Below are positions 164-60,887 of a stretch of DNA of 64,000 bases, piece by piece. The position numbers were made by a program, and so were the translations under genes. This stretch comes from Cryobacterium sp. PH31-L1 (GTDB taxonomy: Bacteria; Actinomycetota; Actinomycetes; Actinomycetales; Microbacteriaceae), in the NCBI RefSeq assembly GCF_030063145.1, contig NZ_JASISM010000007.1, positions 62,001-126,000 on the forward strand, in the 5' to 3' direction. The notes beneath the pieces were generated by a model, which worked only from the letters and a program-made list of their open reading frames with translations, was not told where the DNA came from and did no database searches. The number at the start of each line of letters is the position of its first letter. Position 1 is the first letter of the stretch.

Positions 164-1099
164 TCAGGCGCGGGGGTGCGCGAGCCCGTAGCTCGCTTTC
201 AGGCGTTCCGCCGAGACGTGGGTATAGATCTGGGTGGTGCCGAGGCTGACGTGGCCGAGTAGCTCCTGCACCGCGCGCAGGTCGGCTCCGCCGTCGAGCA
301 GGTGGGTGGCGGCGGTGTGGCGCAGGGCGTGCGGTCCGGCCGGACCGGTTCCGGGGATTGCGTCGAGCAGGGCAGCAACGAGTCGGTAGACGCCGCGTAC
401 GCCGAGGCGTTGGCCTGTGCGGCCCAGGAACAACGCGGCGGCATTCGGTGCCGTCGCGATGTGGGGCGGCGTCTCGGCGTGTGCGAGAAGTGCGGGTCGA
501 GCCTGGCGCAGGTACTCGATGAGGGCGCGCTGCGCCGGTACTCCGAACGGAACCACGCGTTCCTTGGCGCCCTTGCCGGTGACCCGCACGGTCAGCCGAT
601 CCAGGTCGACGTCGGACAGGTCGAGGCCCACGAGCTCAGAAACGCGCAGCGCCGAGGCGTAAAGCAGCTCGACGATCGTAAGATCACGCTGCGCGAGGGC
701 CTCTCCCCCGGCGGCGCGGGCCGTCAGCAGATCGAGCAGCTCGGTCATCTGGGTGTGGGTGATGACCCGCGGCAGGGTGCGTCCCGGCTTCGGCGAGCGC
801 AGGCGTGCCGCCGGGTCAGCGCTGTCGTCGTGGCTGCGCGCCAGCCACGCGGTGAAGCTGCGCGCCGCCGCCGACCGACGGGCCAGGGTAGCCCGCGCCA
901 GGCCGGCCTGGGTGTCCACCCACAGCCATTCCCGCAGAAGTTCGAGACTCAGATCAGCGGATGCCGTAGCGCCGCGGTCGCGGGCAAACCCGGCCAGTTG
1001 GTTCAGGTCAGTGCGGTAGGCCCTCACCGTATGCGTCGAGTAGCCGCGCTCGGCGCTGAGGTAGAGCAGAAACTCATCGATGTCGTCGTTCAGCTGCAC
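164..1099 (-). CDS. xerC: Tyrosine recombinase XerC
   Basis: Site-specific recombinase that resolves chromosome dimers at dif together with XerD. The 311 residues match the usual XerC length. An N-terminal SAM-like core-binding domain (about 5-90) is followed by the catalytic domain, with Arg152 (LRVSEL), the HALRH block (His257, Arg260), GH at 282-283 (His283) and the nucleophile Tyr292 (QIYTH). The GTG start at 1099 has a GAAGGGA ribosome site nine bases upstream. It lies 13 bp behind the phosphoesterase, so the two are probably co-transcribed. Its place beyond dprA-yifB-yraN is the usual actinobacterial context and argues against a phage integrase. Confidence 0.93.
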   Translation of the reverse strand: MQLNDDIDEFLLYLSAERGYSTHTVRAYRTDLNQLAGFARDRGATASADLSLELLREWLWVDTQAGLARATLARRSAAARSFTAWLARSHDDSADPAARLRSPKPGRTLPRVITHTQMTELLDLLTARAAGGEALAQRDLTIVELLYASALRVSELVGLDLSDVDLDRLTVRVTGKGAKERVVPFGVPAQRALIEYLRQARPALLAHAETPPHIATAPNAAALFLGRTGQRLGVRGVYRLVAALLDAIPGTGPAGPHALRHTAATHLLDGGADLRAVQELLGHVSLGTTQIYTHVSAERLKASYGLAHPRA

Positions 1100-1112
1100 C
1101 CGGTCGTTCCCT

Positions 1113-2036: not shown

Positions 2037-2086
2037 GAATCACCTTTCGTCGGTCTTCAGACTACGGGCAGCCACTGACAGCCGAG

Positions 2087-3409: not shown

Positions 3410-3468
3410 GACATCCACTTCTCTGAGAATGCTGACAGTCGACAGGGTGGGGCGATTGGCGATGTTGC

Positions 3469-3483
3469 GGGTTACAGTAACCC
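3469..3483. promoter_or_regulatory. 15-bp inverted repeat in divergent promoter region
   Basis: GGGTTAC-A-GTAACCC is a perfect inverted repeat centred between the propeller gene (start 3409) and the decarboxylase (start 3531). It lies about 36 bp upstream of the decarboxylase -10 box. Operator-like by position and symmetry; no regulator gene is adjacent. Confidence 0.4.
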
Positions 3484-3518
3484 CGTCACCGACCGGCGAC
3501 AAGGCCGGATGAGCGGGC

Positions 3519-3524
3519 TATCAT
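3519..3524 (+). promoter_or_regulatory. Leaderless -10 box (TATCAT) of the decarboxylase
   Basis: TATCAT ends six bases before the ATG at 3531 and no Shine-Dalgarno sequence is present, so transcription should start at or next to the A of ATG. The same geometry recurs at many genes in this window. Confidence 0.5.
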
Positions 3525-3530
3525 GGCGCC

Positions 3531-5024
3531 ATGTCTGCCCAGCCGGACGCCCATTCCGAGGCTCTGGAACGTGCGCTGCTGCACGCCCAAGCCTGGCTTG
3601 CGTCGCTCCCTTCCCGCCCGGTCGGCCCCCGCGTCGACGCCGACACCCTGGCCGCCCTGTCGGCCGGCCCACTGCCGCCGGACCCGACTCCCGCGGCAGA
3701 CGTCATCGATGAACTGGCGTCCTTCGCCGAACCCGGGCTGATGGCGATGCCGTCCGGCCGGTTCTTCGGCTGGGTCATCGGCGGAACCCTGCCGGCGGCC
3801 CTCGCGGCCGATTGGCTGGTCACCGCATGGGACCAGAATGCCGGAATGCGGTTCGCCACTCCCGCAACCGCCGTGCTCGAGGAGACCGCCGCTGGCTGGC
3901 TACTCGACCTGCTGGGGCTGCCGCCAGGAGCGGATGTCGGATTCACTACGGGCGCGACCATGGCCAATTTCGTCGGCCTCGCCGCCGGTCGGCAGTGGGT
4001 GCTCGAGCAGGCCGGGTGGGAGCTCGACCGGTACGGGCTGACCGGCGCTCCCCGGGTACGGGTCTTCGTGGGCTCCGAGCGTCACGAGGTCATCGATCTG
4101 ACCCTGCGCTACCTCGGTCTCGGTGCGCCGATCGTGGTCGACGCCGACGATGAGGGGCGGTTACGGCCCGACGCCCTCGCCGAGCTCCTGCGCGCCGGCT
4201 CCGGCCCCGCCATCGTCTGCCTGCAGGCCGGCAACGTGCATTCAGGAGCATCGGACCCGATGGGCGCAGCGATCGACGTGGCCCGCCAGCACGGAGCCTG
4301 GGTGCATGTCGACGGCGCGTTCGGCCTGTGGGCTGCGGCCAGTCCGCGGTTCCAGGACCAGCTGACCGGTCTGGAACGGGCCGATTCCTGGGCGACCGAC
4401 GCCCACAAGACCCTCAATGTTCCCTACGACTGCGGGGTGGCGATCGTGGCGCGGCCCGACGTGGTGCGACGAGTCTTCGGCGTTCACACCAGCTACCTCA
4501 TCGCCGCGGATGCTTCAGGCGAACGTCGGAGCCCCGGCGACCCGTTCGAGAAGGTGCCCGAGTTGTCCCGTCGGGCGCGAGGCGTTCCGGTCTGGGCCGC
4601 GCTTCGATCCCTTGGCCGCGCCGGCACGATTGCTCTGGTCGATGGTCTCGCGGCGAATGCCGGGGCCCTGGCCGAAGGACTTCGGGCCATGCCGGGCGTT
4701 GAGGTGCTCAACGAGGTCGTGTTCACGCAGGTGTGTGTGAGTTTCGGCAGCGACGATCGCACCCGACGAGTGACCCAGCAACTCATTGCCGACGGCTCCG
4801 CCTGGATGTCGGGGTCGCGCTGGCACGACCGAGACATCCTGCGCATTTCGGTGAGCAACTGGTCGACGGATGCCGCGGACGTCGCGCTCTCCCTCGCCGC
4901 AGTGGCGCGGGCCTGCGCGGCCGTGGATGCTGCCGCAGACACCGGTACGGAGAAGCGGCCGGCCGCGACCGCGGTTACCCCACCGGTTACGGCACCGCAC
5001 CGCTGGACCGAAGATCGCGACTGA
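3531..5024 (+). CDS. PLP-dependent group II decarboxylase family protein
   Basis: A 497-residue fold-type I pyridoxal-phosphate enzyme of the group II decarboxylase family (glutamate, tyrosine and aromatic amino acid decarboxylases). The PLP-binding lysine is Lys293 in DAHKTLNVPYDCG. GFTTGATMANFVGL (about 145) and HVDGAFGLW (about 255-263, with the aspartate that contacts the pyridine nitrogen) fit the family. Substrate is not predictable; relatives act on aromatic amino acids, glutamate or cysteine sulfinate, and some are lyases. The ATG at 3531 has a leaderless -10 box. It runs opposite to the flanking conserved genes and converges on dprA with 49 bp between stops, which suggests an accessory insertion. 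Confidence 0.85.
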   Translation: MSAQPDAHSEALERALLHAQAWLASLPSRPVGPRVDADTLAALSAGPLPPDPTPAADVIDELASFAEPGLMAMPSGRFFGWVIGGTLPAALAADWLVTAWDQNAGMRFATPATAVLEETAAGWLLDLLGLPPGADVGFTTGATMANFVGLAAGRQWVLEQAGWELDRYGLTGAPRVRVFVGSERHEVIDLTLRYLGLGAPIVVDADDEGRLRPDALAELLRAGSGPAIVCLQAGNVHSGASDPMGAAIDVARQHGAWVHVDGAFGLWAAASPRFQDQLTGLERADSWATDAHKTLNVPYDCGVAIVARPDVVRRVFGVHTSYLIAADASGERRSPGDPFEKVPELSRRARGVPVWAALRSLGRAGTIALVDGLAANAGALAEGLRAMPGVEVLNEVVFTQVCVSFGSDDRTRRVTQQLIADGSAWMSGSRWHDRDILRISVSNWSTDAADVALSLAAVARACAAVDAAADTGTEKRPAATAVTPPVTAPHRWTEDRD

Positions 5025-5073: not shown

Positions 5074-6408
5074 CTACGCCCGCCGCACCCAGCCGGCTTC
5101 CCTCTCCTGGGCGGCCCCGTCGAGATCGAGCCCGCCAAGGGCACCGCGCACCGCCGCAGTTGACAGCCCGGCCCGACGCGACAGGTCGGCGACCGTGCGC
5201 GGCGAGCGCCCGCTCAGGGCATCGAACACACGGATCTGGTCGCTCGTGCGCGGTATCGGGCCAGGCCCGGCATCGGTGACAGCAAAGTCGAGGGGTACCT
5301 GGATCGATCGTTCCCCGACGAGCTCGGCCATCTCGGTCGGGCTGGTCACGCAGACCGCGGCGAACTCGCGAATGAGACGGTGGCAGCCGGCCGAGGTGGG
5401 GCTCGTGATCGGCCCCGGTACGGCACCGAGCGGCCGGCCCAGCGCGGACGCGTGTCCGGCCGTGTTGAGGGAGCCCGACCGCCAGCCGGCCTCCAGTACG
5501 ACCGTCGCAGCACTCGCTGCGGCAATCAACCGGTTTCTCTGCAGAAAGCGCCATTTGGTGGGTGCCGCGCCGCACGGCAGTTCGGAGATCACAGCCCCGG
5601 AGGCCACGATTCGGGTGAGTAGGGAGTCGTGGCCACTCGGGTAGAACCGGTCGACTCCCCCGGCCAGAAAGGCCACCGTTACGCCGTCGCTCGCGAGTGC
5701 GGCCCGATGGGCCATCCCGTCTATGCCATAGGCGGCGCCGGAGACGACCGCGAAACCGCGGTCGACCAACCCGGCCGAGGCTTCCATGGCGATGTGCTCC
5801 CCATACCCGGTGGCGGCCCGGGCGCCGACCAGCGCGATCGAGTTTGGGAGCGCGGCCAGGGCGCCGGGTACGCCGCGCCACCACAATGCGAGCGGCGTAT
5901 GTTGTTCGAGGTCGCCGAGCGATGACGGCCACAGGGCATCCGTGGCCAGCAGCAGCCGGGCATCGACACGGGCCGCTTGCTGCAGCGAGCGGATGACGTC
6001 ACCCGAGTTGAGCCGCGGCCGCCAGCGTTGCAGCCCCGCGTCGAGGGCCAGCTCCAGCTCGGCGCTGGTGGCGGCATCCGCTTCGGTGGGATCGGCGCTG
6101 GGACCGGCCGCAAAGACGATATCGGGCCCATCCGGGTCTTCGCTGAGCGCGTCTCGCACGAGCGCGCCGATGCGCACCGGACTCCACGACTCGAGAATGG
6201 CGGTCAGGGCCACGCTCGCGCCAAGGCTCGCCACGAGCAGGCCCGCCGTACCGTCACCGGGTTCGGCAATGCCCGACCAGGCCGCGCGGGCGAATACCTC
6301 GCCGGCCGCGGCGGAGCCAGCGTTGTCGCCAGCGTCAACCGGCATTCCACGGCGTACGCCCGCAGTGAGCTGACTCACCCGGGTTTCGTCGAGCCCGAAC
6401 AGCGTCAT
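5074..6408 (-). CDS. dprA: DNA processing protein DprA
   Basis: Loads RecA onto incoming single-stranded DNA in transformation and is widely conserved even in species not known to be competent. The 444 residues carry an N-terminal helical extension, the Rossmann-like DprA core (LVGARAATGYGE near 195, VVSGAAYGIDGMAH, FLAGGVDRFYP, ISELPCG, RNRLIAA) and a C-terminal winged-helix domain (about 380-440). The start overlaps the stop of yifB by four bases (ATGA), so translation is probably coupled in a yraN-yifB-dprA operon. Length and motifs are normal for an actinobacterial DprA. Confidence 0.95.
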   Translation of the reverse strand: MTLFGLDETRVSQLTAGVRRGMPVDAGDNAGSAAAGEVFARAAWSGIAEPGDGTAGLLVASLGASVALTAILESWSPVRIGALVRDALSEDPDGPDIVFAAGPSADPTEADAATSAELELALDAGLQRWRPRLNSGDVIRSLQQAARVDARLLLATDALWPSSLGDLEQHTPLALWWRGVPGALAALPNSIALVGARAATGYGEHIAMEASAGLVDRGFAVVSGAAYGIDGMAHRAALASDGVTVAFLAGGVDRFYPSGHDSLLTRIVASGAVISELPCGAAPTKWRFLQRNRLIAAASAATVVLEAGWRSGSLNTAGHASALGRPLGAVPGPITSPTSAGCHRLIREFAAVCVTSPTEMAELVGERSIQVPLDFAVTDAGPGPIPRTSDQIRVFDALSGRSPRTVADLSRRAGLSTAAVRGALGGLDLDGAAQEREAGWVRRA

Positions 6409-7937
6409 GATGATATTCCTTTGCGTAGATAGAGAGCTTGGCCGACCTGGTCAGGGCCGGGAATGGTGAGACCGTCGTAGTCGGCCAGGGTCCACGCGAT
6501 GCGCAGCACCCGGTCGTAACCGCGCATCGTGATTCCGCCACGTTCAAGCGCCCGGTCGAGGCCGGCGGTGGTGCTCGAGGCCAGGCGCACCGCCGCGCCG
6601 CGGAGCCAGGGGCCTGGAACCTGAGAGTTCAGGCTCCAGGCTGTGCTACGAAGTCGCTCCGCCGCGGCCGCCCGGGCAGTGACCACCCGCTCCCGGGCAA
6701 TGACACTCGTCATCCGCTGCGTGCCGGCGGCCAGGCGCAACTGGGCGGCGGTAATGCGTTTGACGTTGAGCTGAATATCGATGCGGTCAAGCAACGGCCC
6801 GGAGATGCGGGCGAGGTAGCGGCGCCGGGCGTTCGGCGGGCAGCTACAGCTCAGGTCGCCAGCGCCATATTGCCCGCACGGACATGGGTTGGCCGCCATC
6901 ACGAGCTGAAACCGCGCCGGAAAATGAGCCACGGCATTGGCGCGGTGAATGCTGATCCAGCCCGATTCGAGGGGCTGACGCAGGGCGTCGAGGACCGGCG
7001 AGGCGAATTCGGGAGCCTCATCGAGAAATAGCACTCCGTGCGAGGCCTGCGACGCGGCCCCCGGCCGAATCTGCCCGTTGCCACCGCCCACCATGGCGGC
7101 GGCCGTCGCGGTGTGATGGGGTGCCTCCCACGGCGGCCGGGTGATCAGCTCGCCCAGTCCCAGGCCGCTGAGCGAGCGCAGCGAGCTGACCTCGAGCGAG
7201 CTCGCCGGATCGAGGTCGGGCAACAGCCCGGGCAGGCGGGCCGCCAGCATTGTCTTACCGGCTCCGGGCGGGCCGAGCAGAAACACGTGATGCCCGCCGG
7301 CGGCGGCAATCTGCAGGGCCAAAATGGCGTCGTCGTTGCCGATCACATCGGCCAGGTCGGGCTCGGCCATCAGGTCGGTCGGCACTGTTGCGGCCAGAAT
7401 CGGCTCAACCGGTATCGGGGGCAGTTGGGCGCCGTGAAAGATCGCCGCATCGCGCAGCGACGTGACACCGATCACGCGGACGTCGGGCACGAGTCGGGCC
7501 TCGGCCTCGTTGCCGATCGGCACCATCACCGTGGTGTGACCGAGGCGGGCGGCCGTCATCACCCCGGGAAGAATGCCCGGCGTTGGCCGCAGCCGGCCGT
7601 CAAGGGCGAGCTCGCCGAAATGCACGACCTTACCGACCGATTCGCCCGAAACGGTGCTGTCAGCGGCGAGGCAGGCCAGAGCGATCGCGAGGTCGAAGCC
7701 GGCGCCGTGCTTGGGCAACGCGGCCGGCGACAGATTGATGGTGAGGCGGTGAACGGTGAGCGGGCATCCGCTGTTGGCGGCCGCTGCGCGCACCCGTTGC
7801 GTCGCCTGCGACAGGGCGGCGTCGGGCAGTCCGATCAGGATCATGCCGGGCAGCTGCGCCGAGATGTCGGCCTCGACCTCGACCAGAGCTCCGGTCAAGC
7901 CCAGCAGGGCGACGGCGTGGGTGCGGGCGATTCCCAT
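6405..7937 (-). CDS. YifB/ComM-family AAA+ ATPase (Mg-chelatase-like)
   Basis: A 510-residue ComM/YifB protein. ComM in Vibrio is a hexameric helicase that promotes branch migration during transformation. The N-terminal third resembles the Lon-type S5 fold (LPGMILIGLPDAALSQ), the middle has Walker A GPPGAGKTM (about 218) and Walker B LFLDEAPEF, and the magnesium-chelatase C-terminal domain includes the NPCPCGQYG cysteine motif. It overlaps dprA and yraN by a few bases at either end, as in most actinobacteria. The functional link with DprA is inferred from the family. Confidence 0.93.
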   Translation of the reverse strand: MGIARTHAVALLGLTGALVEVEADISAQLPGMILIGLPDAALSQATQRVRAAAANSGCPLTVHRLTINLSPAALPKHGAGFDLAIALACLAADSTVSGESVGKVVHFGELALDGRLRPTPGILPGVMTAARLGHTTVMVPIGNEAEARLVPDVRVIGVTSLRDAAIFHGAQLPPIPVEPILAATVPTDLMAEPDLADVIGNDDAILALQIAAAGGHHVFLLGPPGAGKTMLAARLPGLLPDLDPASSLEVSSLRSLSGLGLGELITRPPWEAPHHTATAAAMVGGGNGQIRPGAASQASHGVLFLDEAPEFASPVLDALRQPLESGWISIHRANAVAHFPARFQLVMAANPCPCGQYGAGDLSCSCPPNARRRYLARISGPLLDRIDIQLNVKRITAAQLRLAAGTQRMTSVIARERVVTARAAAAERLRSTAWSLNSQVPGPWLRGAAVRLASSTTAGLDRALERGGITMRGYDRVLRIAWTLADYDGLTIPGPDQVGQALYLRKGISS

Positions 7938-8293
7938 CAGAACACGCCCTCGAGGTGTTCAATGACCGGGTCGCGGCCCCGCGGGGCGATCACCGCGATG
8001 ACATCGAGTCGAATCTGGCGCGGCCATCGCTCGGCCGCCACGCACCACGCGGCGGCGAGACGACGCATTCGGGACAGCTTTTTCACGGTGATCGCCTCAA
8101 ACGGATGCCCGAAGCTCAGACTGCTGCGCGTCTTCACCTCGACGAAGACCACGGCAGCGCCCCGCTGCACGACGAGGTCGATCTCTCCCTCTGCGCACCG
8201 CCAGTTGCGGGTGAGGATGGTGTAGCCGGCACCCTGAAGAAAGAGCGCGGCTTGGTCTTCGCCGAGTTTGCCGAGTTCGTCTTTGCGCGCCAC
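7937..8293 (-). CDS. YraN/UPF0102 nuclease-fold protein
   Basis: A 118-residue protein of the YraN family, with a Holliday-junction-resolvase-like restriction endonuclease fold. The conserved core is GEDQAALFL near residue 11 and then EIDLV...VVFVEVKTR (about 37-57), the ExD-type metal-binding signature. The biochemical role of the family is unproven. The GTG start at 8293 has GGAGG six bases upstream. It is the first gene of the yraN-yifB-dprA operon; the 101 bp between it and the dehydrogenase stop show nothing notable. Confidence 0.9.
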   Translation of the reverse strand: MARKDELGKLGEDQAALFLQGAGYTILTRNWRCAEGEIDLVVQRGAAVVFVEVKTRSSLSFGHPFEAITVKKLSRMRRLAAAWCVAAERWPRQIRLDVIAVIAPRGRDPVIEHLEGVF

Positions 8294-9573: not shown

Positions 9574-10017
9574 ATGACTGTGCAGAACCGGCTGACCGAT
9601 CTGAGTATGCGCGCCATGAACGGCGTACACCGGATGCTGCTTTTCGTCTCCGGCGGACGCGTCGGCTGGACCATCGGCACCATGGCGGCTGTCGAGCTGC
9701 ACACGATCGGCCGCAGCAGCGGGAAGCGTCGGTCGACGATGCTCACGGCGCCGGTACAGGGCGGTGGGCGGTATGTGCTCGTGGCGTCCAAGGGAGGCGA
9801 CGACCGGCATCCGTTTTGGTACGGCAATCTCGTGGCCCAGCCCGATGTGGAGCTGACCGTTCGCGGGGTGACTCGGCCGTTTCGGGCGCGCACCGCGACA
9901 TCCGCTGAGAAAGCCGAGCTGTGGCCTCGCATCATCGCCGCCTACCCCGGCTACGGAGATTACCAGACGAAGACCGACCGCGACATCCCCGTGGTTATCT
10001 GCGAACCCCGCCCCTAG
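9574..10017 (+). CDS. F420H2-dependent nitroreductase (Ddn) family protein
   Basis: A 147-residue protein of the deazaflavin-dependent nitroreductase family (PF04075). Motifs include VELHTIGRSSGKRRSTML (about 48-65), YVLVASKGGDD and HPFWYGNLVAQPDVEL. Ddn relatives use reduced F420, though some members bind other flavins or heme. An in-frame upstream start at 9379 would add 65 residues antisense to the dehydrogenase; the start at 9574 is chosen for its leaderless -10 box and the normal family length. It is divergent from the dehydrogenase and convergent with gap. Confidence 0.82.
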   Translation: MTVQNRLTDLSMRAMNGVHRMLLFVSGGRVGWTIGTMAAVELHTIGRSSGKRRSTMLTAPVQGGGRYVLVASKGGDDRHPFWYGNLVAQPDVELTVRGVTRPFRARTATSAEKAELWPRIIAAYPGYGDYQTKTDRDIPVVICEPRP

Positions 10018-24353: not shown

Positions 24354-24378
24354 CGATCAGGCATCCGCTCTGCACGGT

Positions 24379-43717: not shown

Positions 43718-43848
43718 CTTAAGACCCTTTCGGTTGTCGGCCGCGATCCTGGTCTCGGGGCTGGTTCAACGGTACCGTGACCGACCGACAGTGGCCGGGA
43801 CATCCGCTGGTCGCGGAGTGTGGCGTGCACAACCGCGGAGTTTCGCAT

Positions 43849-50425: not shown

Positions 50426-51797
50426 GGCTGGCTCCTCGCTCCCCACTCACGTCGTTCCACACGTCTTCCAGGTTCTCGGTCGTGGCCAGCTCCACACAGC
50501 GCCACCCGGCGGCCTGCAAGCGGTCGCGGGCCGGCACCCCGACCGTTCGTTGCACCAACGCGACGGCGGGCTCACAGTGACGCGCGAGGGCAACGAGATC
50601 GTCGACATCCGCTTCGGACACGCTCACGAGCATCGCGAACGTCGGAAGAGATGGCTGCGCCCCCCGGAGGGCTGCACGCAGCGGCGCCCTGCGCTCTGCG
50701 GCCAGGCGAACGCTGCGGGTCGGCCATGGAACCGGCACGACACTGGCCAGGGCTTCCAGCAGGGCGCGATCACCGCCGGGGGCCCGAAAAGTGGCCGGCA
50801 CGTCGCCGTGCAGCCCGCCCAGGGTCTGTTGGTCGCCCGGCAGCATCTGGCTGGCACCCAGCTCGATCACCTCGACCCGGTATCCGGCGTCGAGCAGGTG
50901 CACACCGACGGATGCTGCCAGCTCGATCTCGAGTTCAAATCCGGCCACAAGGTGCGGCGGAACATGCCCGGCGCCAAGCCCGGCCGCGCCGGCGAGGGTC
51001 GTATCGAGCACGACGCGGGCCTCCGGATTGCTGCGCTGCTCCTCTTGACGCACCATGATTTCGCCGTGCCGGGCGGTGGCCGGCCAGTTCACCCGACGCA
51101 GGGCATCCCCGGGGCGATATTCGCGGGCGATGAGTTCGTCGGAGGTGGGGGTGGCTTGGCGCACGAGTTCTCGAATGGACCCGTCGTTGCTGGACTGGGC
51201 GAGGCCATTACCCGGGAGCGGCGTCACGCGCGGCGTCACGATCAGGTCGTGGGGTGAGCCGGCATGTCGGTCGCTGTGCGCGAAACCGAACGGGTCCTGG
51301 CGTGACACGCGGAGCGGACCAACGTCGTAGACGCCGCGATGGCGCGGCACGACGGAGTACTCCAGACGCACGGTGTCGCCGGTCGCGCCGCTTCGACTAA
51401 CGAGGGGGAGGATGGCCGCCGGAGGCGCCTCCACTCCGGGTGATGGGGTGTCAGCCCACCAGGCGCCACTGAGCGGAGTTGCCGAGAGGTTGCGCAGCTG
51501 CAACGAAACCACGCTCTCACCACCGACCGGAACGATCGGCGGCCGAAAGACCCGGGTGACTTCGACCCGGGCCGGGCGGAGCGAAACGTAACCGGCGGCG
51601 ACGAGCGGAGCCACGATCATCAGGCTGCCCACGAACAGCATGTCACGGCTGTTGACCAGCATTGCGTTGGCAAACAGCACGACGCCGGCGGCCAGAACAA
51701 CCCAGCCGCGCAGGGTGAGACGCGTGGCGAATCGGGCTGCCATCCGCGTGTACCAGTCGGCATTGACCAGTCCGGGTTCTTTCACCCCGCGTGCCAT
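50418..51797 (-). CDS. DUF58 domain protein
   Basis: A 459-residue protein with two N-terminal transmembrane helices (about 33-75) and the DUF58 signature DELIAREYRPGDALRRVNWPATARHGEIMVRQEE (about 240-273), next to a VWA-like fold. It is the standard partner of MoxR ATPases and may serve as the substrate or scaffold. It starts two bases after the moxR stop and overlaps the transglutaminase gene. The specific target of this MoxR system is unknown. Confidence 0.88.
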   Translation of the reverse strand: MARGVKEPGLVNADWYTRMAARFATRLTLRGWVVLAAGVVLFANAMLVNSRDMLFVGSLMIVAPLVAAGYVSLRPARVEVTRVFRPPIVPVGGESVVSLQLRNLSATPLSGAWWADTPSPGVEAPPAAILPLVSRSGATGDTVRLEYSVVPRHRGVYDVGPLRVSRQDPFGFAHSDRHAGSPHDLIVTPRVTPLPGNGLAQSSNDGSIRELVRQATPTSDELIAREYRPGDALRRVNWPATARHGEIMVRQEEQRSNPEARVVLDTTLAGAAGLGAGHVPPHLVAGFELEIELAASVGVHLLDAGYRVEVIELGASQMLPGDQQTLGGLHGDVPATFRAPGGDRALLEALASVVPVPWPTRSVRLAAERRAPLRAALRGAQPSLPTFAMLVSVSEADVDDLVALARHCEPAVALVQRTVGVPARDRLQAAGWRCVELATTENLEDVWNDVSGERGASHD

Positions 51798-51799
51798 GA

Positions 51800-52909
51800 C
51801 TACGACGCTCCGGTAGATCCAACGGCCCGCACCAGCGGCACCGATCGGGTCAGAGCGGATGCCGCGACACCGACCGGCACCGGCGTGTCAGCAAGGATTC
51901 GACGCACGATGTCGTCGATCACCGGACCGCTGTCCTGGTGGTGGTGGCCGAGCGCCCGGCTGGTGGGGACCAACCGATGGCCGAGAACGGCCACGGCGAG
52001 CGAGTCGATGTCGTCGGGCAGCACGTAGTCCCGACCGTTCAAGGCCGCCTGGGCCTTCGCCGCACGGATGAGTTGCAGGGTCGCGCGCGGGCTGGCCCCG
52101 AGACGCAGGTCGCGATCGTCGCGGGTGGCCCGCACCAGATTGACCGCATACTCCTTGACCGCACCGGAGGCGAAGACTCCTCGCGCCGTGAGCATCATGT
52201 CGCGCAGGGTCTCCCCCGACACCACGGCCGAGATCAGTGCGAGCGGGCTGTGCGTGTCGCGCGAGTCGAGCATCGCGAGCTCAGAGTCGGGGTCGGGGTA
52301 CCCCATGGAGATGCGGGCCATAAACCGGTCCCGCTGCGCTTCCGGAAGGGCGTACGTCCCTTCCATCTCGATCGGGTTCTGGGTGGCGATGACGGTGAAC
52401 GGCAGCGCCAGCGGGTAGGTGACGCCGTCGACGGTGACCTGGCGTTCCTCCATCGATTCCAGTAGCGCCGACTGGGTTTTCGGACTCGCCCGGTTGATCT
52501 CGTCACCGATGACGATGTTGGCGAACACCGGGCCTGGCTTGAATTCGAACCGACGCTCGGCCTGATTGAACACCGACACCCCGGTCACATCGGAGGGCAG
52601 CAGGTCGGGGGTGAACTGAATTCGCCCGACCGTGCAGTCCACTGAGCGGGCGAGAGCTTTGGCCAGCATGGTCTTGCCGACGCCGGGCACATCCTCGATC
52701 AGCAGGTGCCCCTCGGCCAGCAGAACGGTCAGGGCGATCTGCACGGCCTCGTGCTTACCATCGATGACCGTTTCGACGTTGCGCATGATCGCGCGCCCGG
52801 CTTCCTGCAGTTCGCTCAGGTCAACCATTGTGTCAGAGTCATTCGACGGAACCGACGCGAGTTCCGCCCTGCTTGAATCGGTGGAGGAGCGAGTCGGTTT
52901 GAGGTTCAT
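51800..52909 (-). CDS. moxR: MoxR-family AAA+ ATPase
   Basis: A 369-residue chaperone-like ATPase. Walker [17 protein letters not shown] (about 73-88), Walker [28 protein letters not shown] (about 131-157), sensor-1 [22 protein letters not shown]. The first 27 residues are a low-complexity extension. MoxR proteins remodel or activate partners with VWA domains. The start overlaps the coaD stop by four bases, so it is probably transcribed with coaD upstream and DUF58 and transglutaminase downstream. Confidence 0.92.
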
Positions 52910-53394
52910 ACCCGCGAACGCTCCAGATATTCCGCCACGGCCCGAGGCACGTAGGGCGAGACATCGCCGCCGAGACCGGCCACCTGGCGTACCAAGGAGC
53001 TGGAGACGTGGGCGTTGGCCGGGTCGGGCAGTAGAAAGACCGTTTCTACCGCCGCCAGATTGCGATTCACGATCGCCATGGGCGTCTCGTAGGCCACGTC
53101 AACCTGCGAACGGATGCCCTTCACCAGAACGCTCGCACCGACATCCATGCAGTAGTCGACGAGCAGACCCATGCTCCAGCTGGCGACCACAATATTGGTC
53201 GGGAGCCCGGCTTCTCTGATGGCCTGTTCCAGCAGCGACACGCGCTGGCTGATCGGCAACAGGGCCGATTTGTCGGGGTTATGCACCACGAGCACATGGA
53301 GCTCGTCGAACAGGCCGGCCGCGCGATCGATCACGTCCAAGTGGCCCAGGGTGACGGGGTCAAATGATCCAGGGACAACGGCGATCCTGCGCAT
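52906..53394 (-). CDS. coaD: Phosphopantetheine adenylyltransferase
   Basis: Fourth step of coenzyme A synthesis. The 162 residues have [19 protein letters not shown] (the TxGH nucleotidyltransferase motif), [21 protein letters not shown] and [22 protein letters not shown] 53394 is preferred to GTG 53400 because TAGGGT lies exactly six bases upstream and the family begins at this Met. It follows recG by 65 bp. Confidence 0.95.
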
Positions 53395-53459: not shown

Positions 53460-55712
53460 TCAGCCTTTGTTGAGCCAGCTGCGTTCGGAATCGTTCAGGC
53501 GGCGCGCGATCGCATCGCGCAGGGCCGCATTGGTACGGATGCCCGGATCGCCCGTCACCAGATGGAAGGCCGCCTGTCGCACCTCCGCGATCAGGTCACC
53601 GTCGACTGCGACCCGCAGGAAACGCAGTTTCGAGCCGTCACCCGATTGCAGATCGCCGAGCACGTTGCCTTCGCGGCGCAGGGCGAGGTCGAGCTCGGCG
53701 AGCGCAAAACCATCAAGCGTCGCGGCGACATCGCCGATGCGCTGGCGGGCCGGCGACCCAGTGCGGGAGGTGGTGACCAACAAGCACAACCCCGGCACGG
53801 GCCCGCGCCCGACGCGACCGCGCAACTGGTGCAGCTGAGATACGCCGAAACGATCGGCATCGAGCACCACCATGGCCGAGGCGTTCGGCACGTCGACACC
53901 CACCTCGATGACGGTCGTGGCCACGAGAACATCGATCTCACCGGCGGCAAACGACCGCATAATGGTGTCTTTCTCGTCGCTCGTCATACGCCCGTGCAGG
54001 GCCTCCAGACGATAGGGGGTGAGCGTCGGTACGCCGCGCATGCCTTCGAGGACCTCTTCCACATTGAACAGCGGGCCGGACTTCTCTCCGTGCGACGGTT
54101 CGATTCCGACCAGGTCAGCGGGGACTTCCTCAATTTCTGCCGGAGAAATCGCCGGACAGACCACGAAGCCCTGACGCCCGAGGGCGAGCTCCTGCGCCAG
54201 GCTCGCCCATACCCGCCCGAACAGGGCTCCGTTCTCGCCCATGGGCACCACGACACTGCGGATACCCTGGCGCCCGGAGGGCAGCATTCGAATGGTACTC
54301 ACGTCGAGGTCGCCGAACACTGTCATGGCGATCGTGCGCGGAATGGGCGTGGCCGTCATGACCAGTACGTGCGGCGGTTGCGCGCCCTTCAACCTCAGGG
54401 TTTCGCGCTGGTCGACGCCGAACCGGTGCTGTTCGTCGATGACGATCAAACCGAGGTCGAAGAACGTCACGGTGTCGCTGAGCAGGGCGTGGGTGCCGAT
54501 CACGATGCGCGACTGACCCGACACTGTGCGGAGCAGTGCCTTACGCTTCTGAGCGACCGGCAGCTTGCCGGTCAGTAGTGTCGGCATAAGTTCGGCCGCG
54601 AGGTCAGGGCCCAGAAGCGTCGTTATCGACCGCAGATGCTGTGCAGCCAGCACTTCGGTAGGTGCCAGCAACGCCGTCTGGCCCCCGCTGTCGGCCACGG
54701 CGAGCATGGCCCGCAGGGCAACAACGGTCTTGCCCGAACCGACCTCACCCTGAAGTAGCCGGTTCATGGGGCCAGACCGGGCCATGTCGCTGGCGATCTC
54801 GGCCGCACAGGTTTCCTGGTCGACCGTCAGTACGAACGGCAGGGTCGCGTCAAAGCGTTCGAGGTACCCGCCAGGGGTGGACACGCGCGGCCGGGTTCGG
54901 CGTTCCCGCGCGAGACTGTGCCGCTGCATGAGCGCGCACTGCAGTACCCAGGCCTCGGTGAACCGCAACGTCTCCTCCGCGGCCATCCACTGTTTTGGAT
55001 TGTCGGGGCTGTGAATCCAGCGGATGGCCTGAGTGTGGTCGAGCAGACCGTGTTCGATCCGCATGTCTTGGGGAACCGGGTCGGGCAGGTTACCCACGCG
55101 TTGCAGGACCTGGTCAATGAGGGTCTGCAGGGTCCAGCTCGGCGCAGCAGCGGTAGCCGAGTAGATCGGAATGAGCGGCTTGAGCATCAACTGCAGGGAG
55201 GGGTTTTCGCGTGCCTCGTCTTCTTCGGTTTCGAAGGTTTGATAGGTGGGGTTAGCCAGTTGGCTCCCCCCCTGGTAGTGGCGAACCTTGCCGGAAAAGC
55301 TGCCGCGCAAGCCGGGCCGAAGCTGCTTGAGGCGCCACTCCTGGCTGTTCTTTCCGAAAAACGTAAGCGTGAATTGACCCCCGCCGTCGGAAATGACCAC
55401 CTCGACGATCGTGCCGGGCCGCGATGACATGCGCTTCTCGTGTACAGAGATGATGTCGGCGATAACCGTGATGTTGGCGCCGGGCGTGAGCTGGTTGAGC
55501 GGCCGGAGCACCTCGCGGTCTGCGTAGTCGCGCGGGTAGTGGCTGAGCAGGTCATTGACGGTCAAAAACCCGAACGCCTTTGCGAGTGCTGTCGCTTTGA
55601 GTGCACCGAGGGCAGTTTTCAGGCTGCTGTCGGGCGTGAGGGGTGCAAGCTGGGGTGCGGGCAGGGAACCCTCGTTGAATTCGGGGCCACTGGCAGCACT
55701 CGAACCGGTCAT
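53460..55712 (-). CDS. recG: ATP-dependent DNA helicase RecG
   Basis: Fork-reversal and branch-migration helicase of 750 residues. The N-terminal wedge/OB region (about 40-230) precedes the helicase domains: LQGEVGSGKTVVALRAML (Walker A), LAPTEVLAAQHLRSI, IVIDEQHRFGVDQRE (DEQH box), VMTATPIPRTIAMTVFGDLDVS, and the C-terminal ATTVIEVGVDVPNASAMVVLDADRFG with HQLRGRVGRG. A leaderless -10 lies six bases before the ATG. It is divergent from rsmD with 50 bp between them. Confidence 0.96.
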   Translation of the reverse strand: MTGSSAASGPEFNEGSLPAPQLAPLTPDSSLKTALGALKATALAKAFGFLTVNDLLSHYPRDYADREVLRPLNQLTPGANITVIADIISVHEKRMSSRPGTIVEVVISDGGGQFTLTFFGKNSQEWRLKQLRPGLRGSFSGKVRHYQGGSQLANPTYQTFETEEDEARENPSLQLMLKPLIPIYSATAAAPSWTLQTLIDQVLQRVGNLPDPVPQDMRIEHGLLDHTQAIRWIHSPDNPKQWMAAEETLRFTEAWVLQCALMQRHSLARERRTRPRVSTPGGYLERFDATLPFVLTVDQETCAAEIASDMARSGPMNRLLQGEVGSGKTVVALRAMLAVADSGGQTALLAPTEVLAAQHLRSITTLLGPDLAAELMPTLLTGKLPVAQKRKALLRTVSGQSRIVIGTHALLSDTVTFFDLGLIVIDEQHRFGVDQRETLRLKGAQPPHVLVMTATPIPRTIAMTVFGDLDVSTIRMLPSGRQGIRSVVVPMGENGALFGRVWASLAQELALGRQGFVVCPAISPAEIEEVPADLVGIEPSHGEKSGPLFNVEEVLEGMRGVPTLTPYRLEALHGRMTSDEKDTIMRSFAAGEIDVLVATTVIEVGVDVPNASAMVVLDADRFGVSQLHQLRGRVGRGPVPGLCLLVTTSRTGSPARQRIGDVAATLDGFALAELDLALRREGNVLGDLQSGDGSKLRFLRVAVDGDLIAEVRQAAFHLVTGDPGIRTNAALRDAIARRLNDSERSWLNKG

Positions 55713-56338: not shown

Positions 56339-57369
56339 CCCGCCGCGCCGTCCCAGCCTCGATAAGGGTCCCAGCCGCCCTGATCGTGCGGGGCACCGTC
56401 GACGGTGATCATGCCCGCGTTCGAAGCGGATGCCGCCACAACCGTTCCGAGGCGCCGAAAGCCCGCCGGCAGAACGGCGTCCGGCGGGAAAGTTGCCAGC
56501 AGCCCGTGGTCTTCGCCGCCTCCAAGTGCGACCTCGATGCGGTCGCCCAGGCTCGCGGAGTCAAAATCGATGCCCACTCCGCTGGCACGCGCGATGCGCC
56601 CGGCGTCGATGGCGAGACCATCGGACAGGTCGAGCATGGCGGTTGCGCCGGCGAGGGCTGCGATCGGTCCGCTCGCAATCGGCGGCACGGGGGCGAGCTG
56701 AGCGGCCACTTCGGTAGGGTGCGCGAGCTTGAGCGCGTTGGCGCGGTCAATGTTGGGTACTCCGTTGGCGTCGACGCCCAAGCGAAACAGCAGCTCGAGA
56801 CCGCGACCGGCGTCGCCGAGCAGCCCGCAGAGCGATACAACGTCGCCGGGGCGCGCGCCCGAGCGCAATACGGGGGCACGGCCCTCCAAGTCGCCGAACG
56901 CCGTCACGGCCAGCGTGAGGGCGTCTGACGCGGACAGGTCGCCGCCGACCACCCCGCAGCCGGGCGCCAGCGCCTCGCAGCAGTCCCGCAGCCCGTCGGC
57001 GATGCCCTCGAGCACCGCCACGGGCGTCGACGGCGGCGCCGCAATCGCTACGACGAGGGCGGTCGGTCGGGCACCCATTGCCGCAACGTCGGAGAGGTTC
57101 GTGGCCGCGGCTTTCCAGCCGAGGTCATGCGGCGTCGACCAGGCCAGACGAAAATCCGGGCCCTGAATCATCATGTCGGTCGTCACCACGAAGCGTCCGT
57201 CGGGCGCTGCGATGACCGCAGCATCGTCACCCGGGCCGAGCAGTTGCGCGGCTGCGGTCGGCAGCCGCGGGAAGATTCGGCCGAGTACGGCGCCTTCGCT
57301 CAGGTCGGCGAGCGTTTCGGCGGCGGCGGTATGCGGGGCTGAACGCGGGGCATCCGCAGCGGTTGTCAT
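56335..57369 (-). CDS. thiL: Thiamine-monophosphate kinase
   Basis: Phosphorylates thiamine monophosphate to the active diphosphate. The 344 residues contain GPGDDAAVIAAPDGRFVVTTDMMIQGPDF (about 46-74, metal-binding aspartates), WKAAATNLSDVAAMGARP and LDLSDGLAIDAGRIA. The in-frame extension upstream to 57402 is rejected because ATG 57369 has a leaderless TACCGT box. It is divergent from the DUF3515 gene with only 24 bp between starts. Confidence 0.94.
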   Translation of the reverse strand: MTTAADAPRSAPHTAAAETLADLSEGAVLGRIFPRLPTAAAQLLGPGDDAAVIAAPDGRFVVTTDMMIQGPDFRLAWSTPHDLGWKAAATNLSDVAAMGARPTALVVAIAAPPSTPVAVLEGIADGLRDCCEALAPGCGVVGGDLSASDALTLAVTAFGDLEGRAPVLRSGARPGDVVSLCGLLGDAGRGLELLFRLGVDANGVPNIDRANALKLAHPTEVAAQLAPVPPIASGPIAALAGATAMLDLSDGLAIDAGRIARASGVGIDFDSASLGDRIEVALGGGEDHGLLATFPPDAVLPAGFRRLGTVVAASASNAGMITVDGAPHDQGGWDPYRGWDGAAG

Positions 57370-57918: not shown

Positions 57919-57951
57919 CCCCGTCTTATGAGGCCGCTCATGGCGATCGGG

Positions 57952-59049
57952 TCAGGAACCGTGGCGGGCGTGGGCGATGGCCACCGCGATGAGCTCGTGG
58001 ATCAGCTCGGGGTAGGTGTAGCCGCTGGCCAGCCAGCAGCTCGGGAACATCGAGATGCTCGTGAAGCCGGGCATGGTGTTGATCTCGTTGATCACCCAGC
58101 CCGCCTGCGTGAGAAAGAAGTCCACTCGGGCCAGGCCTGCGCCGCCGATGGCTTCGAACGCCCGAATCGCCAGCCGTTGTACCTCGGCCAGCTCCTCCGC
58201 CGACAAGAGAGCGGGGCAGACCAGGTCGACCCCCGGTGCGTCGAGGTATTTCGCGGCGAAGTCGTAGAAGTCACGGCCGGTTACGACGACCTCGCCGGCC
58301 ACTGAGGCGCGGGTCGGCTCCCCCGGGCGTCCCTGCAGCACTGCAATTTCGAGTTCGCGGCCGATGAGCCCGGATTCGATCAATACCTTGTTGTCTTGGG
58401 CGAGCCCCACCGTCATGGCCTCGGCCAGTTGCTCGGGCGTCGACACCCGACTGACGCCGACGCTCGACCCAGCACGCGCCGGCTTCACGAAGGCGGGCAG
58501 GCCGAGCTGTTCCAGGGCAGCGTAGCCCATCCCGGGCGCCTGCGCCCAGTCATCCGCTGTCAGGGTGCGCCACGGCGCCACCGGCAATGCCGCCTGCTGA
58601 AAGACGGTCTTGGCGAAGTGTTTGTCCATACCCAAAGCGGATGCCAGCACTCCCGACCCGACATACGGCAGGCCGAGCAGGTCGAGCATGCCCTGAATTG
58701 TGCCGTCCTCGCCGAACGGTCCATGCAAAATCGGGAATATGAGGTCGACCGAGCCGAGCGACCGCTCACCGGCGGCGTCGACGACGGTCAGTTCCCGGGT
58801 CGACCCGCTCTCGGGCCAGCGCACCCGGGTGCCGTTGTCGGCGACCACGGGCAGAGCTGAGGCGTTCAGGGCGAACTTGGCCGGGTCGTTGTCTTCCAGC
58901 ACAAACGCCCCGTCACGGGTGATTCCCACCGGAATGACCGTGTAACGATCAGGGTCGAGGGCTGCCAGCACTCCGCCCGCCGTTGCGCAGCTGATCGAGT
59001 GTTCGCTGGAACGCCCTCCAAAGAGAAGCACCACCGTGAGCTTGTCCAT
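57952..59049 (-). CDS. ddl: D-alanine--D-alanine ligase
   Basis: ATP-grasp ligase making the D-Ala-D-Ala end of peptidoglycan precursors. The 365 residues begin VVLLFGGRSSEHSISCATAGGVL, with HGPFGEDGTIQGMLDLLGLPYVGSGVLASALGMDK (about 108-142), FVKPARAGSSVGVSRV and the C-terminal RVDFFLTQAGWVINEINTMPGFTSISMFP (metal ligands). ATG 59049 has GAAAGGAC eight bases upstream. Its first 34 codons overlap the extended 3' end of gpsA in another frame. Confidence 0.95.
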   Translation of the reverse strand: MDKLTVVLLFGGRSSEHSISCATAGGVLAALDPDRYTVIPVGITRDGAFVLEDNDPAKFALNASALPVVADNGTRVRWPESGSTRELTVVDAAGERSLGSVDLIFPILHGPFGEDGTIQGMLDLLGLPYVGSGVLASALGMDKHFAKTVFQQAALPVAPWRTLTADDWAQAPGMGYAALEQLGLPAFVKPARAGSSVGVSRVSTPEQLAEAMTVGLAQDNKVLIESGLIGRELEIAVLQGRPGEPTRASVAGEVVVTGRDFYDFAAKYLDAPGVDLVCPALLSAEELAEVQRLAIRAFEAIGGAGLARVDFFLTQAGWVINEINTMPGFTSISMFPSCWLASGYTYPELIHELIAVAIAHARHGS

Positions 59050-60100
59050 CGTCAAGTGTCCTTTCGCCCTGCGGTTCGCCGGAGTCTGTTGTGAGGTGCG
59101 GCGCAATGTCGCGGGGGTTGAGTGTGCCGTCGAGCACCTGACGTACCTGTTCGACGATGGGCATGTCGACGCCCTTGGCGCGGGCAAGCTCGAGAACGGG
59201 CTTTACCGAGGCGAGGCCTTCGGTGGTCTGCTGCATCTGCTTGACGACGTCGTTGATGCTGTACCCCTGGCCGAGCAGCCGCCCGGCCGTGTTGTTGCGG
59301 GACAGCGGCGACTGGCAGGTGGCGATGAGGTCACCGAGACCAGCCAAGCCGGCCAGCGTCTCGGCCTGAGCGCCGTAGGCCACCGCGAAGTCGGTCATTT
59401 CGACCAGTCCACGGGTGATGATCGACGCCTTGGTGTTTTCGCCAAAGCCGACGCCGTCGACGATGCCGATGGCCACCGCGATGAGGTTCTTGAGCACGCC
59501 GCCGAATTCGGTGCCGATGACGTCGGTGTTGATGTAGGAACGAAAATAGCGGTTGGTCGCCAGTTTGGCCACGGCCTGCGCGGTCTCCAGGCTCACCGAG
59601 GAGACGACGGCCCCCGTGGGTTGTTCCTTGGCGATTTCGAGCGCGAGGTTCGGCCCGCTGATCGCGGCAATGCGAGCGGGGTCGATGTGCAGCACCTCTT
59701 CGATCACCGTGCTCATGCGCATACCGGTGGAGCGCTCGACGCCCTTCATGAGCGAGATGACGATCGCGTTCGCGGCCAGGTACGGTTCGACCTGTTTGAG
59801 GTTCTCCCGCAGGGACTGGCTGGGCACAGAGACGAAGACCATTTCGGCGCCGGCCAGTGCCAGGTCGAGGCGACTCGTGGCGCGCAGGCCCACCGGCAGG
59901 TTCACGCCGGGCAGGTAGTCGCTGTTGCGGCGGGCTTCGGAGATTTCTCGGGCCAACTCGGGGCGGCGGGCCCACAGAACGACGTCGGCGCCGCCATCCG
60001 TCAGAATCTTGGCGAAGGTGGTTCCCCAACTGCCAGCACCGAGAACGGCCACCCTGGTGCCTGGTTGGATCTTGGGCAGCTGGGGGGTTCTAGGCTTCAA
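58949..60100 (-). CDS. gpsA: Glycerol-3-phosphate dehydrogenase [NAD(P)+]
   Basis: Makes sn-glycerol 3-phosphate for phospholipids. Core motifs: VAVLGAGSWGTTFAKIL (about 17-33), SLMKGVERSTGMRMS, SGPNLALEIAKEQPTG, GTEFGGVLKNLIAVAIGIVDG (catalytic Lys) and TRGLVEMTDFAVAYGAQAETLAGLAGLGDLIATC. At 383 residues it is about 45 longer than usual: the last 33 residues are read from inside ddl, a 101-bp overlap. The start is TTG at 60100, 11 bases inside plsC; the ribosome site is weak. A lost stop or a frameshift near 59050 could explain the extension. Confidence 0.93.
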   Translation of the reverse strand: MKPRTPQLPKIQPGTRVAVLGAGSWGTTFAKILTDGGADVVLWARRPELAREISEARRNSDYLPGVNLPVGLRATSRLDLALAGAEMVFVSVPSQSLRENLKQVEPYLAANAIVISLMKGVERSTGMRMSTVIEEVLHIDPARIAAISGPNLALEIAKEQPTGAVVSSVSLETAQAVAKLATNRYFRSYINTDVIGTEFGGVLKNLIAVAIGIVDGVGFGENTKASIITRGLVEMTDFAVAYGAQAETLAGLAGLGDLIATCQSPLSRNNTAGRLLGQGYSINDVVKQMQQTTEGLASVKPVLELARAKGVDMPIVEQVRQVLDGTLNPRDIAPHLTTDSGEPQGERTLDDGQAHGGASLWRAFQRTLDQLRNGGRSAGSPRP

Positions 60101-60887
60101 AACGGCCTGTCTCTTTCTGGTTGTGCTCCGACGGGTTCCAGCGCTTGACCGGAGCCTTCTCGCCGCGCAGGTCTTCGAGCAGCGCCGTGATGGCGACCAT
60201 CACGACCGCTGTCGCCTCGTTGAGCGTGGCAGTGTCGAGGCTGCGCCCCCGAAACTGGGAGAGGTCGAGCGGGTCGCCGATCTTCACCGTGATGGTTTTG
60301 CGCGGAAACAGACTGATCTTCTTGGAATACCGCGGCATCAGCTTCTGCGTACCCCAGTGGGCGGCCGGCACGATCGGAATGCCCTGTTCGAGCGCGATGC
60401 GCACGGCTCCGGTCTTGCCGCGCATCGGCCACAGTTCGGGGTCACGGGTGAGTGAGCCTTCCGGGTAGACGACCACGATCTGGCCTTTTTCGACCAGGCG
60501 CTGGGCGGCCTTGACCGGTTCGCTGCCGCGCACCGATCCGCCGCGCTGCACCGGAATCTGGCCCGATTTGGTCAGTACCCAGCCGATGACCGGAATCTTG
60601 AAAACGGATGCCTTGGCCAGAAACCGCGGCAGCCGCCCCAGCTTCCAAGCCACGACTCCCATGACCACTGGATCGATCTCGCTGTAGTGGTTCGGCGAGA
60701 AGACGAACGCACCGCTGCGCGGAAACTTGTGCGCGTCGATGATCTCGTAGCGGGCCGCGAGGTTCATCACCGGCAGGATCAGCCCGGCAAGAATCCAGAA
60801 CGCGCTCGGCCGGCTCTTTTCCGAACGGATTCGGGTCGGCGACGGCGGAGACTCGGGGGTTTCTGGCACGTCGTTGTTTTCAGGCAC
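60090..60887 (-). CDS. plsC: 1-acyl-glycerol-3-phosphate acyltransferase (PlsC family)
   Basis: Acylates lysophosphatidic acid in membrane lipid synthesis. The 265 residues have one likely N-terminal membrane segment (ILAGLILPVMNLA), the catalytic NHYSEID block (HX4D, about 66-72), KIPVIGWVLTKSGQIPVQRG, and VYPEGSLTRDPELWPMRGKTGAVRIALEQGIPIVPAAHWG (EGS motif). GTG start with AAGGA upstream, seven bases after the murA stop; it overlaps gpsA. murA-plsC-gpsA-ddl is a common actinobacterial order linking wall and lipid synthesis. Confidence 0.92.
   Translation of the reverse strand: MPENNDVPETPESPPSPTRIRSEKSRPSAFWILAGLILPVMNLAARYEIIDAHKFPRSGAFVFSPNHYSEIDPVVMGVVAWKLGRLPRFLAKASVFKIPVIGWVLTKSGQIPVQRGGSVRGSEPVKAAQRLVEKGQIVVVYPEGSLTRDPELWPMRGKTGAVRIALEQGIPIVPAAHWGTQKLMPRYSKKISLFPRKTITVKIGDPLDLSQFRGRSLDTATLNEATAVVMVAITALLEDLRGEKAPVKRWNPSEHNQKETGRFEA

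Follow-up and report, generated by a model that had tools for sequence, protein, structure and literature searches.

ARCGGATGYC, a highly iterated word of Cryobacterium and a candidate DNA uptake sequence of Microbacteriaceae

A 64-kb stretch of contig NZ_JASISM010000007.1 from Cryobacterium sp. PH31-L1 (the window, taken at its full length) carries many copies of a word, ARCGGATGYC, that is non-palindromic, i.e. differs from its own reverse complement. Judging from sequence comparisons, we consider that this word is probably a DNA uptake sequence in its Cryobacterium dialect, one common to much of the family Microbacteriaceae. Abundance, near symmetry between strands, a core with dialects, convergent pairs, conserved sites and a scarcity on plasmid-like replicons together form the signature of DNA uptake sequences; the symmetry, the lineage dialects, the convergent pairs and the low plasmid-like density, along with a resident competence apparatus, are the reasons why we rank this reading best.

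Abundance of the word in the Cryobacterium genome

The core of the word, CGGATGCC, occurs 41 times on the two strands of the window, compared with 6.33 times on average in 100 dinucleotide shuffles (standard deviation 2.31, maximum 15), which bears out the iterated word described in an earlier note on this DNA. The note listed 40 positions: 38 were exact and two were off by one (18469 for 18468, 41563 for 41564), while a forward-strand copy at 61766 had been overlooked. The two bases 5′ of the core are AG (17 copies), AA (11), GA (5), CA (3), TG (2), TA (1), TT (1) and AC (1); a flank described as ‘nearly always AG, AA or GA’ is thus found at 33 of the 41 copies, the other eight departing from it. 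There are 37 sites of the full consensus ARCGGATGYC in the window, and its C-to-T variant, AGCGGATGTC, does recur (nine copies). In the whole genome (3,662,145 bases, 33 contigs), with the reversed pattern of the word as control, we counted 747 forward and 766 reverse sites, 1,513 altogether, against 39 (15 and 24) for the control; the frequency of the word is, therefore, far above control genome-wide, and the normal frequency in the rest of the genome that the earlier note named as a refutation is not observed.

When k-mers of the window were ranked without priming, fragments of ARCGGATGYC headed the lists of 8-, 9- and 10-mers. An unconstrained expectation-maximization motif search converged on codon periodicity and was set aside; a seeming one-strand run of sites on contig C11 was an effect of listing, and stretches L001-L012 show both strands. 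Substitution counts in 464 kb delimit the word: AAGCGGATGCC has 28 copies versus 0.3 expected; single-base changes inside ARCGGATG leave 0 to 5 copies, with the exception of A at R (19 copies); the next two bases are more tolerant (C to T at the first, 8 copies; C to T or C to G at the second, 14 and 9 copies, respectively), and the leading A is free.

One could suspect an artefact, produced by mutation bias or by the use of codon pairs or amino acids. In a sample of 484 kb of the genome (445 called genes, 428 kb coding), 160 ARCGGATGYC sites were observed in coding DNA. Synonymous codon shuffling, a null of the kind named in the earlier note, produced 8.1 sites (maximum 17 in 60 shuffles); a stricter shuffle preserving the bases at codon junctions produced 38 (maximum 46 in 40 shuffles). 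The latter figure, about a quarter of the count, would suit such an artefact, as would the dominance of one frame, A-RCG-GAT-GYC (80 of the 160 coding sites), which along with its antisense counterpart is the strongest. However, five of the six reading frames show an excess over the null (the sixth has 1 site versus 0.8), and intergenic DNA is enriched too: 24 sites versus 0.63 in shuffles, a density of 0.43 per kb compared with 0.37 per kb in genes. For another genome, G122, the counts were 46 versus 3.4 in intergenic and 246 versus 46.6 in coding DNA, with CGGATGCC densities of 1.12 and 0.69 per kb. As the nulls leave an excess and intergenic DNA is about as dense in sites as genes are, the word's abundance does not stem mainly from coding bias. 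An artefact of this sort would also have to spare a plasmid residing in the same cell (genome G017, below), and we regard it as most improbable.

Dialects, paired sites and conservation in Microbacteriaceae

In all 36 other Cryobacterium genomes examined ARCGGATGYC is above control (155 to 1,573 copies), and its density per Mb spreads ninefold among species of the genus, between 44 and 413; copy numbers lie between 19 and 67 in 23 genomes belonging to other families of the order. Among 249 Microbacteriaceae genomes, many genera have elevated counts of the full word. With one genome taken per genus (85 genera), the core CGGATGCC exceeds its reversed control at least 3-fold in 58 genera, at least 5-fold in 46 and at least 10-fold in 25; it is under 3-fold in 27 genera and under 1.5-fold in nine. 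Top counts belong to G199 (4,093 in 4.3 Mb; strands 1975/2118, control 230) and G116 (4,041 in 3.9 Mb; strands 2011/2030, control 116). Motif-rich lineages range from hundreds to ∼4,000 copies per genome, the cold-living Cryobacterium of the window having ∼2,000 of the short word. The core is near control in the reduced genomes G069, G072 and G118, and ranges by eye from 0.3 to ∼4 times control in 184 genomes from other families of the order (top values, 3.9 in G443 and 3.8 in G346).

Such figures bear on the possibility that a DNA methyltransferase or a restriction system recognises the word. Type III and IIL enzymes typically have non-palindromic words as targets, and ARCGGATGYC is one; however, targets of these systems are neutral or avoided in genomes, and an up to 40-fold enrichment, inside and outside coding DNA and across dozens of genera, is not expected of a methylation target, which makes this explanation very unlikely.

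Dialects were sought by ranking k-mers without supervision in named loci and in samples of 20-60 kb, some of which were short. The same core appeared with lineage-specific flanks: AACGGATGCC in G061; GACGGATGC(C) in Glaciibacter superstes, C. sinapicolor, G084 and G138; CGGATGCCGCG in Microterricola pindariensis, G199 and G147; GGATGCC followed by T, C or G in G116; GGATGCCC in Subtercola; and, as a possible dialect, TGGATGCGG in one Leifsonia. The C. sinapicolor and C. tepidiphilum pools each consist of two overlapping loci of one genome, which inflates their counts. No strong GGATGCC signal was seen in samples of 20-90 kb from Leifsonia (four pooled loci), G075, G090, G073, G110 and G069.

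Other iterated words were observed as well. In G094 (L144, L162), from a genus without the GGATGCC signal, the word GGAGGCGCGG is iterated (GGAGGCGC 39 times in 40 kb versus 7 expected); it is possibly a far dialect. In genus g73 (G110; L145, L163) the core is below its reversed control (43 versus 115) and GTGGATCG is iterated. G088 (L135, L155, L169) has a palindrome, GTCTCGAGAC, at ∼20 places in 60 kb (40 when counted on both strands), and G067 (L134, L154) has GGGTTGAGGA 10 times in 40 kb alongside the normal motif. AGCGTCGAGC, counted 18 times in overlapping loci of one genome (C. sinapicolor/G012; L042, L091), so that about half of the copies are real, is probably a local repeat. The top enriched 8-mer of G069 (L150, L166; 1.4 Mb, without GGATGCC) is ACACCGAT (12 versus 1.3); among the genomes sampled from the family, it is also the one in which ComEC scores highest.

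Close neighbours prefer one orientation. Among sites <60 bp apart, 12 pairs were convergent, 4 divergent and 2 same-way in Cryobacterium (CGGATGC), and 16, 8 and 4, respectively, in G122 (GGATGCC); against an expectation of one-quarter, the convergent excess has p ∼0.0003 in each of the two samples. All four inspected pairs fold as hairpins (z -1.7, -3.4, -3.4 and -1.6), two of them clearly beating shuffles.

Conservation of sites between related species, a check proposed in the earlier note, was assessed in one 20 kb region around comEC, with the Cryobacterium genome as reference. Of 170 aligned species-site cells in 14 motif-rich Cryobacterium species, 115 kept the reference site (background for 9-mers, 0.25 to 0.53). 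Counted per site over up to 14 species, the 12 of 15 sites with enough alignment were identical in a mean of 0.59 of species, compared with 0.35 at 16 one-mismatch words (p 0.017) and 0.31 at 2,481 other words (p 0.0005); thus, in this region the sites are kept beyond background.

Plasmid-like replicons are poor in the word. The second replicon of G017 (C2, 187 kb), which carries relaxase and IS110 transposase genes, has 7 sites in 80 kb versus 251 in 400 kb of the chromosome and shows no enrichment (8 copies of CGGATGCC versus 9 for the control). Second contigs, whose plasmid status is not shown, had 6 sites in 80 kb (G016) and none in 40 kb (G005), the chromosomes having 15 and 16, each in 80 kb; three small contigs from other genera, small samples all, had 4, 3 and 0 sites versus 11.7, 11.0 and 7.3 expected from the genome mean.

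The spread of sites along the sampled chromosomes, their conservation and the low plasmid-like density would fit chromosome architecture too. A nucleoid-organising word, or one akin to HIP1 (highly iterated palindrome 1), would be bound by an internal protein of the chromosome and maintained by selection, without a part in DNA entry. We consider this explanation unlikely: no binding protein is known, the ninefold spread of density within a genus and the 27 genera with a core under 3-fold would be odd for architecture, and convergent pairing as well as dialects are typical of uptake sequences.

Competence genes and the case for DNA uptake

Genes for a competence machine are present in the host: comEC, comEA, dprA and type IV pilus operons. 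Its comEA, under the TIGR01259 cut-off and over that of TIGR00426, and comEC adjoin genes read by eye as holA and leucyl-tRNA synthetase. A genome scan with the ComEC query returned 63 loci and places the genome in Cryobacterium: the nearest loci are those of Cryobacterium flavum and C. aureum, whose best segments are 94% and 90% identical, respectively. Three type IV pilus operons pass the cut-offs for PilC, pilin N-methylation motifs, PilM and a T2SSE ATPase, whereas matches resembling PilO, PilX and PilV fall short of theirs; the operons (L007:1-8400, L009:1-11000 and L009:9800-19400) are separate and divergent, and lie within ∼60 kb. Adjoining a pilus operon (L007:9466-20000) we saw by eye genes for two proteins, one large with several domains and one small and WXG100-like, which suggests a type VII secretion locus.

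Pilus genes tend to accompany the word. In 37 Cryobacterium genomes the number of PilM copies correlates with motif density (rho 0.66, split matches merged and kinship ignored), and the core is at least 5-fold enriched in 31 of 45 genera with a PilC-type match and in 15 of 40 without (Fisher p 0.005, kinship ignored). Ten of the 37 genomes have a PilM type that its profile matches in two separate parts; all ten have at least 233 motifs per Mb.

If the word does serve uptake, a surface DNA receptor would bind environmental double-stranded DNA bearing it and pass the DNA to ComEA and ComEC for import as a single strand, to be recombined by DprA and RecA; candidates for this receptor are ComEA and a minor pilin belonging to the type IV or Tad pili. 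Better-matching fragments would be taken up more often, and recombination would then spread and preserve the word in the core chromosome, with plasmids lagging behind. Receptor and word could drift jointly, giving rise to dialects that favour uptake from close kin. Pilus platform genes could not be recognised in some motif-rich genomes, so that the word may be read by a receptor of a new, non-pilin kind. Whether a whole Gram-positive actinobacterial family practises sequence-specific uptake, with genus-level dialects barring exchange and with a new non-pilin receptor, perhaps ComEA, as a possibility, is a question on which we find the balance even.

A number of observations weigh against an uptake sequence. 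We know of no Gram-positive bacterium in which sequence-specific uptake has been shown. ComEC matches in 245 of 249 Microbacteriaceae genomes (a 0.9 Mb genome included) and ComEA-type helix-hairpin-helix matches in 246 (170 pass the curated cut-off) are near-universal; therefore, neither gene separates motif-rich from motif-poor genera, and their presence is not supported as the cause of the difference. PilC-type pili are associated with the core, with exceptions: for the full word the association is weak (at least 3-fold enriched in 24 of 45 genera with PilC and in 15 of 40 without, Fisher p 0.19), G062 (8-fold core) is without any PF00482 (T2SSF) match, G102 (8-fold) and G066 (9-fold) have a marginal one only, and G022, with 804 motifs, has no PilM match. 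No receptor for the word was found, pilus gene content tracking motif density with these exceptions. Eleven less related or mostly motif-poor genomes keep 15 of 59 sites (background, 0.12 to 0.18). A housekeeping contig of G149 has 5 copies versus 12 expected, which indicates that local density varies and that small plasmid samples are noisy. Few convergent pairs are wholly intergenic (1 and 4 in tandem, 1 and 0 in tail-to-tail settings, for the two samples respectively), and no clear T-run was seen at the few hairpins inspected; hence any terminator habit would be weaker than in Neisseria. By eye, no bias toward gene ends was seen across gene quintiles, unlike in Pasteurellaceae as described in an excerpt of PMC2346458.

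Strand balance is the remaining point. An absence of obvious strand bias, as claimed in the earlier note, holds for the genome of the window and for G122 (147/148 in total, 68/66 and 79/82 in chromosome halves, p 0.8), and is qualified by G017, where, with oriC not located, the totals are 121/130 and the two halves show a mild tilt (81/68 versus 40/62, Fisher p 0.02). The tilt may follow gene orientation, which seems to shift the same way. It would also suit a Chi-like site regulating an end-processing enzyme of AddAB, AdnAB or RecBCD type, as would high copy number, over-representation, low plasmid-like density and variation among lineages; AGCGG at the motif start resembles the Chi of Bacillus subtilis. 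Chi sites, however, are polar, mainly on the leading strand. Near-equal strands in the halves of G122 argue against strong polarity like that of Chi or KOPS (FtsK orienting polar sequences), the G017 tilt being small, and convergent pairs would block both directions. We thus hold a Chi-like role to be quite improbable. The interpretation in the earlier note is thus supported in part: among its four options an uptake sequence fits best, while a methylation target is disfavoured, and so are recombination or segregation sites of strong polarity. That much of a bacterial family shares the motif had not been noticed there.

Uptake sequences are, to our knowledge, known only in two Gram-negative families. 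As a kind they are familiar; the phylum, the envelope type and possibly the reader would be new. We favour the view that the Microbacteriaceae word, if it is an uptake sequence, would be the first in Gram-positive bacteria; among the matches listed in open-licence literature (titles and abstract openings) there was no uptake word for Actinobacteria, Gram-positives, Microbacteriaceae or Micrococcus. Should such a word have arisen independently in Gram-positives, this family of dozens of genera, with its dialects, its sister lineages rich or poor in the motif and its competence genes all through, would offer a natural experiment on how uptake words arise, spread and get lost. It would touch on a long-standing question, namely what bacteria gain by importing DNA and for what reason just some of them tag their own. 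Tagging DNA with the word might then render these soil, ice and water bacteria transformable.

Sites of the window are collected in Table 1. Profile scans identified ordinary core genes there (dprA, smc, recG, murA, nirB, cysN and yifB/comM), dprA and yifB being present as the earlier note had it; comM has a link to transformation. The site at 24360 does lie between genes according to our gene calls.

Table 1. Copies of the word, its variants and its core in the window, with two genes that bear copies
Feature	Position	Strand	Remark
Motif AGCGGATGCC	956..965	+	
Motif AGCGGATGTC	3929..3938	+	T variant
Core CGGATGCC	4867..4874	+	other flank
dprA	5074..6408	-	TIGR00732; DNA processing, transformation; ubiquitous gene, bears motif copies
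Core CGGATGCC	5935..5942	-	other flank
Motif AGCGGATGCC	6073..6082	-	within dprA
yifB/comM family ATPase gene	6405..7937	-	TIGR00368; bears one motif copy
Motif AGCGGATGCC	7763..7772	-	within yifB/comM
Motif AACGGATGCC	8100..8109	+	
Motif AACGGATGCC	9806..9815	-	
Motif AGCGGATGTC	9897..9906	-	
Motif AGCGGATGTC	11545..11554	-	
Motif AACGGATGCC	12306..12315	+	
Core CGGATGCC	14421..14428	-	other flank
Motif AGCGGATGCC	16995..17004	+	
Core CGGATGCC	18468..18475	-	other flank
Motif AGCGGATGTC	19768..19777	+	
Convergent inverted motif pair	21752-21761 / 21764-21773	+ / -	hairpin near 3′ end of called open reading frame; fold z -3.43
Motif AGCGGATGTC	23438..23447	+	
Motif AGCGGATGCC	24360..24369	-	intergenic
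Core CGGATGCC	25432..25439	-	other flank
Motif AGCGGATGTC	26824..26833	-	
Core CGGATGCC	30080..30087	+	other flank
Motif AACGGATGCC	32158..32167	+	
Motif AACGGATGCC	32231..32240	+	
Motif AGCGGATGCC	32574..32583	-	
Core CGGATGCC	34106..34113	-	other flank
Motif AGCGGATGCC	35680..35689	+	
Motif AACGGATGCC	35842..35851	-	
Motif AACGGATGCC	39297..39306	-	
Motif AGCGGATGCC	40283..40292	-	within smc
Motif AGCGGATGCC	40870..40879	+	within smc
Motif AGCGGATGCC	41564..41573	-	within smc
Motif AGCGGATGCC	41965..41974	+	within smc
Core CGGATGCC	42192..42199	+	other flank
Motif AGCGGATGTC	43799..43808	-	intergenic
Motif AGCGGATGCC	44423..44432	+	
Core CGGATGCC	44533..44540	+	other flank
Core CGGATGCC	44821..44828	-	other flank
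Motif AGCGGATGCC	46034..46043	-	
Motif AACGGATGCC	48115..48124	+	
Motif AGCGGATGTC	48623..48632	-	
Motif AGCGGATGTC	50604..50613	-	
Motif AGCGGATGCC	51854..51863	+	
Motif AACGGATGCC	53109..53118	+	
Core CGGATGCC	53536..53543	+	other flank, within recG
Motif AGCGGATGCC	56425..56434	+	
Core CGGATGCC	57349..57356	-	other flank
Motif AGCGGATGCC	58636..58645	+	intergenic by gene calls of this analysis
Motif AACGGATGCC	60603..60612	+	
Core CGGATGCC	61766..61773	+	absent from the earlier position list

Comparison with known systems

HIP1 of cyanobacteria, the palindrome GCGATCGC, is a very abundant short word across its lineage; the Microbacteriaceae word is likewise abundant over a lineage but is non-palindromic.

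The published systems are compared here on the basis of excerpts from the cited papers. A screen of Veillonella genomes gave no word of at least 10 bp at 100 copies or more (PMC5397411). Transformation of Micrococcus luteus resembles what we propose in that an actinobacterial ComEA/ComEC competence system works with a pilus, there of the Tad/Flp kind; the term ‘uptake sequence’ does not occur in the text (PMC4322843). Other families of the order are without strong CGGATGCC enrichment, the membership of Micrococcaceae in that sample not being checked by name.

The uptake signal sequence (USS) of Pasteurellaceae, AAAGTGCGGT with its variant ACAAGCGGTC, is similar in size, copy number, lack of a general orientation bias and a family-wide range with variants (PMC2346458). 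It differs in word, phylum and cell envelope, and the Cryobacterium word has no gene-end bias; AAGCGG, common to this word and to the ACAAGCGGTC type USS, looks like a coincidence.

The DNA uptake sequence (DUS) of Neisseriaceae, GCCGTCTGAA with its dialects, is read by ComP, a minor type IV pilin (PMC3630211, PMC6370729); the Microbacteriaceae word, which has candidate receptors only, is unrelated to it and belongs to another phylum, to high-GC Gram-positive bacteria without an outer membrane, with an apparently weaker terminator use. Known uptake sequences are comparable in symmetry, in the biased orientation of neighbours and in having dialects around a core (PMC3630211, PMC1852404, PMC2346458), and with the Neisseriaceae DUS the word shares a length of ∼10 bp, thousands of copies, close pairs and family-wide dialects around a fixed short core.

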